64,000 nt of DNA from Piscinibacter sp. XHJ-5 (lineage in GTDB: Bacteria > Pseudomonadota > Gammaproteobacteria > Burkholderiales > Burkholderiaceae_C): positions 3,038,001-3,102,000 of the forward strand of contig NZ_CP123228.1 in NCBI RefSeq assembly GCF_029855045.1, given 5' to 3'. This document shows, in pieces, positions 47,704 through 58,930 of the stretch. The notes under the pieces are model-generated. The model did not search any database. It was not told where the DNA came from and worked only from the letters and a program-made list of their open reading frames with translations. The translations under genes and the position numbers were made by a program. How positions within the stretch are numbered: position 1 is the first letter of the stretch; each line of letters opens with the position of its first letter.

Positions 47704-48069
47704 ATGGGTGCGACGCAAGCGCAGCGGCTGGTGGTGTGCCGGCTCGACGACCAGCGTTTCGCGCTGCCGGTGGCGGCCATCGACAGGGTCCTGCCGGCGA
47801 TGGCGTACCGGCGTCCTTCGCAACCGCAAGCCTGGCTGCACGGCGCCGTCGAAGTGCACGGCGTGGTGGTCCCGGTGCTCGACATCCGCCGCCGGCTCTG
47901 CCTGCTCCCGCGCGAACCGCAGCCGGCCGACATGTTCGTGCTGGCCACCAGCGGCGGCCGGCCCGTGGGCTTCTTCGTCGATGCCGTCGAGGACGTCGGC
48001 GACGCCAGCCCGGCCGTGCCGGTTCACGATCTCGATCGGCTGTTTCCACTGCAGCCCGGCATGCCATGA
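47704..48069 (+). CDS. cheW: CheW-like coupling protein (short, WspB-like)
   Basis: 121 residues from the ATG at 47704, with AGGGA 6 nt upstream; a second ATG at 47698 is possible. CheW fold: RLVVCRLDDQRFALPVAAIDRVLPAM, GAVEVHGVVVPVLDIRRRL and RPVGFFVDAVEDVG. It is short for CheW (usually about 150). It would couple the chemoreceptor at 52.4 kb to CheA. It overlaps the CheR gene by 4 nt. Confidence 0.9.
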   Translation: MGATQAQRLVVCRLDDQRFALPVAAIDRVLPAMAYRRPSQPQAWLHGAVEVHGVVVPVLDIRRRLCLLPREPQPADMFVLATSGGRPVGFFVDAVEDVGDASPAVPVHDLDRLFPLQPGMP

Positions 48070-49190
48070 GCGAAGCCTTGCTCGATCTGATGGCGCGGCG
48101 AGTCTCCGCGCAGATGGGTCTGGCCATCGATGCGTCGCACCACGCGGCGTTGCGCAACGTGATCGACGTGCGGGGCGATGCATGGCGCTGGATCGAGGCG
48201 CCGCTGGAGCGCGAGGACATCGAGCTGCTCGCTCGGGGCCTTTCGGTCGGTGAGACCTACTTCTTCCGCGAGCCCGCGGCGTTCCAGGCGCTGGAGCATG
48301 ACGTGCTGCCGCCGCTGATCGAGGCCCGTCGACGGGCCGGCCGGCGCCTGCGGCTGTGGAGCGCGGGCTGCTGCACGGGCGAGGAGGCGTACTCGCTGGT
48401 GATCATGCTGGCACGGCTGCTGCCCGACCTCGACGACTGGGACGTTCGCATCGTCGGCACCGATATTCATCCGGGCTTCCTGGAGCGCGCACGCGAGGGC
48501 GTGTACGGCGACTGGTCGTTCCGCGGCGTGCCGGCAGACCTGCGTGAGCGCTACTTCGAATGCCGCGGGCCCGACCGGCACGAGCTTCGCGCGGAACTGA
48601 AGCGGCGGGTGGAGTTTCGCTTCGGCAATCTGGCGTGCGACGCCCCGCCGGATCGCGATTTCGACATCATCCTGTGCCGCCATGTGCTGATGTACTTCGT
48701 GCCGGCACAGGCCGAGCGCGCCGTGCAGCGCGTATGCGAAGCCCTGGCGCCGGGCGGCTGGCTGGTGCTTTCATGTGCCGAAGCTGCGGTGGCGCCCCAC
48801 GGTCTCGACAGGGCGCCTGTCCGGGACATGTTGTTTCATCGACGGCCGTTACCGCCCGCACCGCCGCAGCCCGCGCAAATCGACACAGCTCCGCATGGAC
48901 GCCGGGCGGCGCAGCGTGCACTGCGCGGCTGCGAGGCTGCGCTGGCCGCCGATCGCTGCAACGTCTCGCTGCACTGGCTGCATGCGACGCTGCTCGAGGC
49001 AATCGGCGAGATCCAGGGTGCACGCGATGCGTTGCGCCGCGCGCTGTTCCTAGACGCCGACTTCCTGCCCGCTCACATGGCGTTGGCCAGGCTCGGAGAG
49101 CGGCAAGGTGATGAACGACTGAGGCGTCGCCATCTCGCGCAGGCGCAGCGCCTGCTCGACAGCCGGCGCCATCCGGCGTTGCCAGCGTGA
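48066..49190 (+). CDS. cheR: CheR-type methyltransferase with C-terminal TPR-like tail (WspC-like)
   Basis: 374 residues. CheR N-terminal helices, then the receptor-binding/SAM domain: VGETYFFREPAAF, LWSAGCCTGEEAYSL (SAM loop, about 98-110), VGTDIHPGFLERAREG, DIILCRHVLMYF. The last 110 residues are helical Ala/Leu/Arg-rich repeats like a TPR (ALRGCEAALAADRC, ALRRALFLDADFLPAHMAL), the layout of WspC. It methylates glutamates of the chemoreceptor. Overlaps genes on both sides (ATGA and GTGA). Confidence 0.92.
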   Translation: MSEALLDLMARRVSAQMGLAIDASHHAALRNVIDVRGDAWRWIEAPLEREDIELLARGLSVGETYFFREPAAFQALEHDVLPPLIEARRRAGRRLRLWSAGCCTGEEAYSLVIMLARLLPDLDDWDVRIVGTDIHPGFLERAREGVYGDWSFRGVPADLRERYFECRGPDRHELRAELKRRVEFRFGNLACDAPPDRDFDIILCRHVLMYFVPAQAERAVQRVCEALAPGGWLVLSCAEAAVAPHGLDRAPVRDMLFHRRPLPPAPPQPAQIDTAPHGRRAAQRALRGCEAALAADRCNVSLHWLHATLLEAIGEIQGARDALRRALFLDADFLPAHMALARLGERQGDERLRRRHLAQAQRLLDSRRHPALPA

Positions 49191-57491: not shown

Positions 57492-58930
57492 TGTCGTCGA
57501 CGCAAGCCTCCTCGGGCATCGAGATCCTGCTGGTGGAAGACAGTCCGACGCAGGCGGCGCGGCTGCGACACCTGATGGAAAGCCGCGGCTTCTCGACGCG
57601 GGTGGCCGGCAACGGCCGGCAGGCGCTGGCCGCCCTGCACGAGCGCGGCGCCAGCCTGGTGCTCTCCGACGTGGTGATGCCGGAGATGGACGGCTACACG
57701 CTGTGCCGCACGCTCAAGTCGGATCCGGTGCTGCGCCATACGCCGGTCATCCTCGTCACGTCGCTCACCGATCCGAAGGACATCGTCAGCGGCCTCGAGT
57801 GCGGGGCGGACAATTTCGTGCGCAAGCCCTACGCCGACGACTACCTGCTCAAGCGCATCCAGCACGTGCTGATCAACCAGGAGCTGCGCCGTGCGGATCA
57901 CAACCGCATGGAGCTCGGCATCATGGTCTACCTCGGCGGCCAGAAGCACTTCGTCAATGCGGAGCGTCAGCAGATCCTCGACCTGCTGATCTCCACGTAC
58001 GAGCAGGCGGTGTCGGTCAACGAGGAGCTGCAGGCGCGCGAGCTGCAGATCAGCGAGCTCAACGCCAGCCTCGCGCGCCGGGCCGCCGAGCTGGAGCAGA
58101 TCAATGCCGAGATCGCGCGCAAGAACCTCGAGCTGCAGCGCGCGAGCGGCATGAAGTCGGAGTTCGTCGCCAACATGTCGCACGAGCTGCGCACGCCGCT
58201 CAACGCCATCATGGGCTTCTCCGAGATGCTGAAGGACGGGCTGCTGGGCGAGCTCGGCGAGCGCCAGCGCAACGCGTCCGCGGCGATCTTCGACAGCGGC
58301 ATGCACCTGCTTTCACTGATCAACGACATCCTCGACTTGTCGCGCATCGAGGCGGGCAAGATGGAGCTCGAGCTCGAAAGCACCGACGTCGACGAGCTGC
58401 TGTCCAACAGCATGCTGATGCTGAAGGCGCGGGCGACCGCCCACGGCATCCGGCTCGAAGTCGAAGCCGAGGCGGCCGAGCCGGTGACGGTGGACCGGCG
58501 CAAGGCGCGCCAGATCGTCTACAACCTGCTGTCGAATGCCGTGAAGTTCACGCCCGACGGCGGGACCGTGGTGCTGCGGGCATGCAGGGTGGACGCCGCG
58601 CGGTCGGAAGGCATGCAGCCGGTCGTCCAGACGAAGGCGGCGTCGGACAAGGGCTATCTCGAGATCGGCATCGTCGACACCGGCATCGGCATCGCGGCCG
58701 AGGACATGGGGCGGCTGTTCCGGCCCTTCGCCCAGCTCGACAGCGGTCTGTCGCGCAAGTACGAGGGCAGCGGATTGGGCCTCGCTCTGGTGAAGCAGCT
58801 CGTCGAGCTGCACGCCGGCGCGCTCGCGGTGCAAAGCCGCGTCGGCCAGGGCACGACGTTCAAGGTGTGGCTGCCGTACCGCGAGCCGGTGCCTCAGGCG
58901 GCGTCATCAGGCGCTGGCGCCGACCGGTGA
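57488..58930 (+). CDS. Receiver-histidine kinase hybrid (WspHRR-like output kinase)
   Basis: 480 residues. N-terminal REC with Asp61 (LVLSDVVMPEMDGY, VTSLTDPKD, NFVRKPY), a coiled coil (NEELQARELQISELNASL), then HisKA with His232 (FVANMSHELRTPLNAIMGFSEML) and HATPase (NLLSNAVKFTPDGG, VDTGIGI, GSGLGLALVKQLVELH). It sits where WspR (REC-GGDEF) is found in Pseudomonas; Burkholderia wsp operons carry a similar hybrid called WspHRR (from memory). It is soluble, so CheA is the likely phosphodonor. Its last 71 nt overlap the convergent sigma-54 regulator. Confidence 0.92.
   Translation: MMSSTQASSGIEILLVEDSPTQAARLRHLMESRGFSTRVAGNGRQALAALHERGASLVLSDVVMPEMDGYTLCRTLKSDPVLRHTPVILVTSLTDPKDIVSGLECGADNFVRKPYADDYLLKRIQHVLINQELRRADHNRMELGIMVYLGGQKHFVNAERQQILDLLISTYEQAVSVNEELQARELQISELNASLARRAAELEQINAEIARKNLELQRASGMKSEFVANMSHELRTPLNAIMGFSEMLKDGLLGELGERQRNASAAIFDSGMHLLSLINDILDLSRIEAGKMELELESTDVDELLSNSMLMLKARATAHGIRLEVEAEAAEPVTVDRRKARQIVYNLLSNAVKFTPDGGTVVLRACRVDAARSEGMQPVVQTKAASDKGYLEIGIVDTGIGIAAEDMGRLFRPFAQLDSGLSRKYEGSGLGLALVKQLVELHAGALAVQSRVGQGTTFKVWLPYREPVPQAASSGAGADR

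Follow-up and report, generated by a model that had tools for sequence, protein, structure and literature searches.

A candidate three-compartment sensory pathway combining a TonB-dependent receptor, YfiR and a CHASE8 chemoreceptor in Piscinibacter sp. XHJ-5

This study concerns a chemosensory gene cluster of Piscinibacter sp. XHJ-5, contained in a stretch of 64 kb (the window) of its 6.65-Mb single-contig genome, in which the genes for a TonB-dependent receptor (TBDR), a periplasmic YfiR-like protein and a CHASE8-bearing methyl-accepting chemotaxis protein (MCP) stand among che genes. The comparison of related loci showed, at the level of sequence, that the TBDR, YfiR and a transmembrane protein with CHASE8 are inherited together as a unit. 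In this group, that third protein is in most cases a chemoreceptor, embedded in a CheW-CheR-CheW / CheA-CheB set of its own. We give an even chance to the reading that the cluster encodes one sensory pathway across three compartments, running from the outer-membrane TBDR through periplasmic YfiR to the CHASE8 chemoreceptor and CheA.

The nine genes of the cluster all lie on the plus strand and, by Pfam profile search, belong to the families that an earlier note on this DNA had named. They are given below together with a divergent stand-alone REC gene that the note had left out.

47117..47539, minus strand: stand-alone REC, CheY3-like (Response_reg 6.6e-21), divergent from the cluster
47704..48069, plus strand: CheW 1, short (CheW 2e-17, profile 2-91 of 138)
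48066..49190, plus strand: CheR methyltransferase with a weak TPR-like tail (CheR 9.1e-47)
49187..49795, plus strand: CheW 2 (CheW 5.4e-25 at residues 62-190)
49854..51830, plus strand: TBDR, TOL_0244 family (NF053590; Pfam Plug and barrel)
51818..52357, plus strand: YfiR-like periplasmic protein, TOL_0243 family (DUF4154 'YfiR/HmsC-like' 4.4e-35; NF053591)
52354..54129, plus strand: CHASE8 chemoreceptor, MCP (CHASE8 4.8e-18, HAMP 1.9e-14, MCPsignal 2.8e-32)
54160..56418, plus strand: CheA with C-terminal REC (Hpt, HATPase_c, CheW, Response_reg; GTG start)
56415..57491, plus strand: CheB methylesterase (CheB_methylest 2.3e-59, Response_reg)
57488..58930, plus strand: REC-histidine kinase (N-terminal Response_reg 1.1e-25, HisKA 2.1e-23, HATPase_c 4.4e-26)

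Read from the sequence, the consecutive junctions are overlaps of 4 and 4 nucleotides (CheW 1 to CheW 2), a gap of 58, overlaps of 13 and 4 (TBDR to MCP), a gap of 30 and overlaps of 4 and 4 (cheA-cheB-REC-kinase), in agreement with the overlaps of 4-13 nucleotides described earlier.

Joint inheritance of the TBDR, YfiR and CHASE8 genes

Across 49 complete trio loci, the pairwise distances were correlated at 0.86 for YfiR-CHASE8, 0.72 for YfiR-TBDR and 0.67 for TBDR-CHASE8, values that include shared species history and that were reached by none of 1000 permutations. Among 11 MCP loci, L101 being excluded, the nearest neighbour was another MCP locus in 10 cases for YfiR, 9 for the TBDR and 10 for CHASE8, and every exception pointed to locus L097. 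The MCP label was strongly clustered in all three trees (0/500 shuffles as low). The label changes needed were 3, 2 and 3 in the CHASE8, YfiR and TBDR trees, as L097 is nested inside, and 2, 1 (95/88) and 2 when L097 was counted as MCP.

Chemoreceptor-type loci in other genomes

A CHASE8 match was obtained in 44 of the 399 genomes drawn from the family (six at 303-390 bits, the others at 163 or below) and in 34 of the 399 drawn from the order (three at 352-390 bits, the others at 148 or below), the genome of XHJ-5 itself being included in both draws. Eight genomes lie above this score gap; seven of them encode a confirmed MCP, and in the eighth (G1079, L097/L119) the gene is cut off. Some 85,000 named genomes were scanned with a single peptide pattern, which gives a lower bound; at least nine loci were obtained, including those of Andreprevotia chitinilytica, Methylobacillus sp. 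MM3, Oxalobacteraceae bacterium AB_14, Polaromonas sp. P2-4, Candidatus Methylobacter favarea (Gammaproteobacteria) and metagenome-assembled genomes called Rhizobacter and Pseudogulbenkiania. On the evidence of the scan and both draws, the idea that the cluster is unique to this genome was rejected. With MCP residues 1-240 as protein query, the best 120 of 172 matches carried an MCP domain in 79 cases, a kinase in 36, GGDEF in one and none of these in four (Pfam columns), in a search that favours MCPs because its query is one.

With duplicates merged, there are 12 distinct confirmed-MCP loci: the window, L093-L096, L098-L101, L114, L116 and L117. In all 12, the CHASE8-MCP gene is immediately preceded by those for YfiR and the TBDR, so that the survey of related clusters proposed in the earlier note found the receptor-YfiR pair beside the chemoreceptor every time. 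The genes cheA and cheB lie in the cluster in 10 of the 12 and are convergent and adjoining in L116. This gene order is found again in other genera and so is not due to chance. The last gene starts with a related REC in 8/8 readable loci; it is a REC-kinase in six of them (the window, L094, L096, L098, L114, there to the contig end, and L117), and in L093, L100 and L101 it is truncated behind a REC start.

In L101 (5256-19784; Polaromonas sp. P2-4), cheR, the TBDR gene, cheA and cheB are each found in two frames, and these four split genes suggest sequence errors or decay.

Identity of the three envelope components

The TBDR scored 823.1 bits against NF053590 (cut-off 645) and consists of Plug and barrel, with no STN domain (FecA-type signalling) in Pfam at E <= 0.01. 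YfiR passed NF053591 with 138.6 bits (cut-off 125), and its identification as a true YfiR by fold is supported. Its profile matched the solved structure 4yn7 at 1.2e-4 (the single sequence gave no match to solved structures at E 0.01), and most positions put forward as YfiR-YfiN contacts are conserved in the 49 trio loci.

The chemoreceptor carries CHASE8 (PF17152) and HAMP (PF00672), and its residues 10-234 match NF007423 (DgcN/YfiN) at 1.4e-18 with 67 bits, below the cut-off of 325. Its N-terminus scored 187.8 against NF053592 ('sensor histidine kinase, YfiR-like protein-associated'), below the cut-off of 194, and Pfam found no kinase domain on it. Pfam and the structural model support a CHASE8/PAS-like periplasmic domain, as predicted in the earlier note, and no different fold emerged; against solved structures, profile A2 was matched at its HAMP end alone, no relative of the CHASE8 part being found by sequence. 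Pfam counts one HAMP. By our own reading of sequence and model, there may be three HAMP-like units in the 590-residue type of CHASE8-MCP and one in the 512-residue type, and a block of about 78 residues that is present in the former and not in the latter (window ~53050-53290, MCP residues ~233-310) would represent the two additional units.

TBDR-YfiR-CHASE8 as a widespread module

NCBIfam models exist for all three members of the trio (NF053590, NF053591 and NF053592), named after genes of Thalassolituus oleivorans. In a phylum-wide draw, NF053591 matched 94 of 398 genomes, 24 of them above the cut-off. Forty regions were taken, mostly round the strongest listed matches, and 39 were counted, one being misplaced; next to YfiR, these contained a TBDR in 29/39, a CHASE8 gene in 34/39 and both in 25/39. 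The 35 CHASE8 proteins of the phylum regions showed a kinase match in 32, GGDEF-EAL in two (L069, L075) and neither in one (L076), with an MCP domain in 0/35. Within the own family, 13 regions round kinase-type CHASE8 matches were taken; the CHASE8 protein has a kinase match in every one, and all three genes are present in 11/13, L128 having no adjacent TBDR and L120 no YfiR, so that a TBDR adjoins in 11 of the 12 loci with YfiR.

XHJ-5 itself possesses a second trio (L011 4918-9516; C1 ~4.071-4.076 Mb), in which the CHASE8 protein has GGDEF-EAL at its end (Pfam), so that a counterpart to the chemoreceptor version exists within the same genome for comparison. TBDR-YfiR is thus a general module and not, as had been thought, a novelty of the cluster in the window. 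The YfiR switch appears as a front end that can be plugged into kinases, cyclases and chemosensory arrays alike.

Outside the window, about 26 kb downstream of the MCP, lies a CHASE8 hybrid kinase (L012 14364-16358, minus strand; C1:3117567-3118235) with 297.7 bits against NF053592, above the cut-off, and no YfiR match beside it; G487, a genome of the own genus that carries the cluster, also has a CHASE8 kinase without YfiR about 25 kb from it (L120).

Cytoplasmic components and neighbouring genes

CheW 1 is without the final third of the CheW profile (Pfam) and may be missing one subdomain, and CheW 2 has about 60 additional residues at its N-terminus. The earlier designation CheR-TPR stands for the CheR part, whereas the C-terminal TPR had a best NCBIfam E of 0.0011 and no Pfam match. 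The REC-histidine kinase is likely, from its domains, to be the phosphate acceptor of CheA.

The stand-alone REC probably belongs to the cluster. At the equivalent position, relatives with 215-225 bits occur in L093, L094, L114 and L117, all of the own genus; none comparable was found outside the genus in the stretches searched, where the sole match was a REC of 122 residues that follows the kinase gene of L096 (53 bits).

A convergent sigma-54 response regulator at 58860-60803 (minus strand; REC, Sigma54_activat 9e-70, Fis-type HTH) overlaps the 3' end of the REC-kinase gene, and no relative of it above 59 bits was found in the related loci searched.

Proposed mechanism and alternatives

In the resting state, YfiR would be docked on the CHASE8 helix near Phe66, holding the receptor locked in one signalling state. 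Ligand at the TBDR would pull YfiR away or reshape it, and the change would be relayed via the HAMP units to CheA. CheA-REC would then phosphorylate the REC-kinase at its N-terminal REC, and the kinase in turn would control the stand-alone REC or another regulator, with adaptation provided by CheR and CheB. The output would therefore lie in the control of genes and not in the steering of flagella. What the sequences establish is the set of parts and their joint conservation; every contact in the chain is our inference.

As to the role of the TBDR, it is possible, though clearly less likely than not, that a TBDR without STN steers the chemosensory array across the envelope, its occupancy moving YfiR off the CHASE8 chemoreceptor. 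A compound too large or too hydrophobic to get as far as the inner membrane could in this way be sensed at the surface, with CheR/CheB adaptation, and the same switch would also explain signalling by the alkane sensor OmpS.

OmpS of Alcanivorax dieselolei is a TBDR cited in PMC6304351 as essential for alkane detection and as the trigger of the chemotaxis response and expression. According to the same source, in the parts available, TOL_0244 of Thalassolituus oleivorans is 40.3% similar to OmpS and was up sevenfold on n-C28 versus Tween 80. OmpS is also treated in PMC9788540 and PMC5174103, and the accessible text of neither says which genes adjoin ompS. In the window, upstream of the cluster, stand the following genes:

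43798-47112: wax-ester synthase/DGAT gene (WS_DGAT_cat 1e-56) and two alpha/beta hydrolase genes (9.1e-6 and 1.5e-26)

Relatives of the wax-ester synthase/DGAT and of both hydrolases adjoin the cluster in L117; L093 has the two hydrolases there and L114 a single one (the counts for L093 and L114 end at contig ends); L094 has another REC gene instead at the position of the upstream neighbour, and outside the genus no such relatives were found in the loci searched. Because of the TOL_0244/OmpS alkane data and these neighbours, the ligand is best sought among long-chain hydrocarbons or lipids, and hydrophobic carbon sources are weakly favoured.

It is also possible, although we find it doubtful, that the TBDR is an importer and YfiR a small binding protein for its substrate, CHASE8 reading the YfiR-ligand complex or the ligand alone, in the manner of binding proteins at chemoreceptors. 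Still less probable is a YfiR that senses periplasmic redox or envelope stress, with the TBDR serving merely co-transcribed nutrient uptake outside the signal. Such a role would agree with Cys65 and Cys104, invariant in 44/44 aligned YfiR proteins close to that of the window, and with the redox-responsive YfiR of P. aeruginosa reported in PMC3375315, as far as that source was available; yet each cysteine occurs in only 36/49 of the wider trio loci, the TBDR diverges along with YfiR (r 0.72), and it is adjacent in 12/12 MCP loci, 11/12 family loci with YfiR and 29/39 phylum loci.

We likewise think it improbable that the array serves true chemotaxis, steering flagella or pili from a front end in the outer membrane. 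The full adaptation set of CheR and CheB would suit this role, as would the additional MCP genes within the cluster of L098, L100 and L101, but the last gene is a REC-kinase or REC-GGDEF-EAL, and two further CheA-like matches (E <= 1e-30) occur in the genome. The first lies in a 2106-residue open frame, and the second (G000:C1:5263279-5264286) is of usual size with one in-frame TGA; their presence fits, without proving, a non-motility role of the array in the window.

Several observations weigh against the reading of the cluster as one pathway with a chemoreceptor at its centre, in addition to the species history contained in the distance correlations. The PAS-bearing kinases P0079, P0083 and P0084 scored 204-217 bits, inside the range of the MCPs, and L095 has no che genes on its 15.2-kb contig. 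At the third of the proposed contact positions, Val146 of YfiR, a valine is present in only 28/49 loci, and the alkane link comes from other genomes. The last gene is not constant, being REC-GAF-PAS-kinase-REC-Hpt in L116 and REC-GAF-PAS-GAF-GGDEF-EAL in L099 (Methylobacter); since its domains vary while TBDR-YfiR-MCP and the core recur, front end and core are taken as fixed and the last effector as exchangeable. Finally, the L097 gene (2248-3550), which is closely related to the CHASE8 chemoreceptors and likewise preceded by TBDR and YfiR, has a PAS after HAMP and no MCP domain before the contig end, although nested among MCP loci in the three trees. Should L097 not be an MCP, the output would have been exchanged inside this group, possibly recently.

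Significance

In the usual view, chemoreceptors respond to what arrives in the periplasm or cytoplasm. An outer-membrane receptor and a periplasmic regulator that recur ahead of a chemoreceptor would be a route to sense surface-bound or large hydrophobic compounds, with adaptation, and the cluster is a concrete test case for how TBDRs without a signalling domain, such as OmpS, transmit a signal.

The earlier view that the combination is undescribed appears to hold for the whole TBDR-YfiR-chemoreceptor cluster, of which we found no description in the titles and abstract openings among the open-licence papers listed. It does not extend to YfiR with an MCP output: one clause in the available text of PMC3375315 mentions MCP domains in place of the YfiN cyclase, and 'TonB' is not present in the main text of that paper. 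A known switch and a known array class thus seem to be joined here in a recurring way, the parts being known and the whole circuit apparently undescribed.

Comparison with known systems

On the envelope side, YfiBNR of P. aeruginosa and HmsCDE resemble the window in having a periplasmic YfiR beside a CHASE8-HAMP membrane protein together with an outer-membrane partner, and most proposed YfiBNR contact residues are kept in the window proteins. The outer-membrane gene of YfiBNR, however, encodes the lipoprotein YfiB, whereas that of the window encodes a TBDR, and no YfiB-like OmpA/PAL lipoprotein domain was found by Pfam among the ten proteins scanned; the output is GGDEF in YfiBNR and MCPsignal (Pfam) in the window. 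The NCBIfam trio TOL_0244/TOL_0243/HK_near_YfiR_like shares its first two members with the window, whose TBDR and YfiR pass the cut-offs, but its third protein is a sensor histidine kinase instead of an MCP in a che cluster.

On the cytoplasmic side, the Wsp system of Pseudomonas has the gene order WspA-B-C-D-E-F-R. The earlier classification of the array as Wsp-type is right about the two CheW, CheR, CheA-REC and CheB in one cluster, but WspR (REC-GGDEF) is missing from the window, where the last gene is REC-HisKA-HATPase and TBDR-YfiR-CHASE8-MCP takes the place of the Wsp receptor. The Methylobacter cluster L099 does end in a REC-GGDEF-EAL protein. The Flm pathway of Comamonas testosteroni was rejected as the closest relative, since it is described in the available text of PMC8880074 as a Tfp-class cluster with a single-domain regulator.

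In the Che3 system of Rhodospirillum centenum, as described in the accessible part of PMC3868531, CheA3, which has a C-terminal REC, phosphorylates a REC of the kinase CheS3, and the stand-alone CheY3 is phosphorylated by CheS3 only. A TBDR-YfiR input is not described for Che3 in that text. CheA with C-terminal REC, a kinase with N-terminal REC and a stand-alone REC are all present in the window, a likeness in the kinds of part, and by this comparison the cytoplasmic parts of the window fit R. centenum Che3 better than Wsp.

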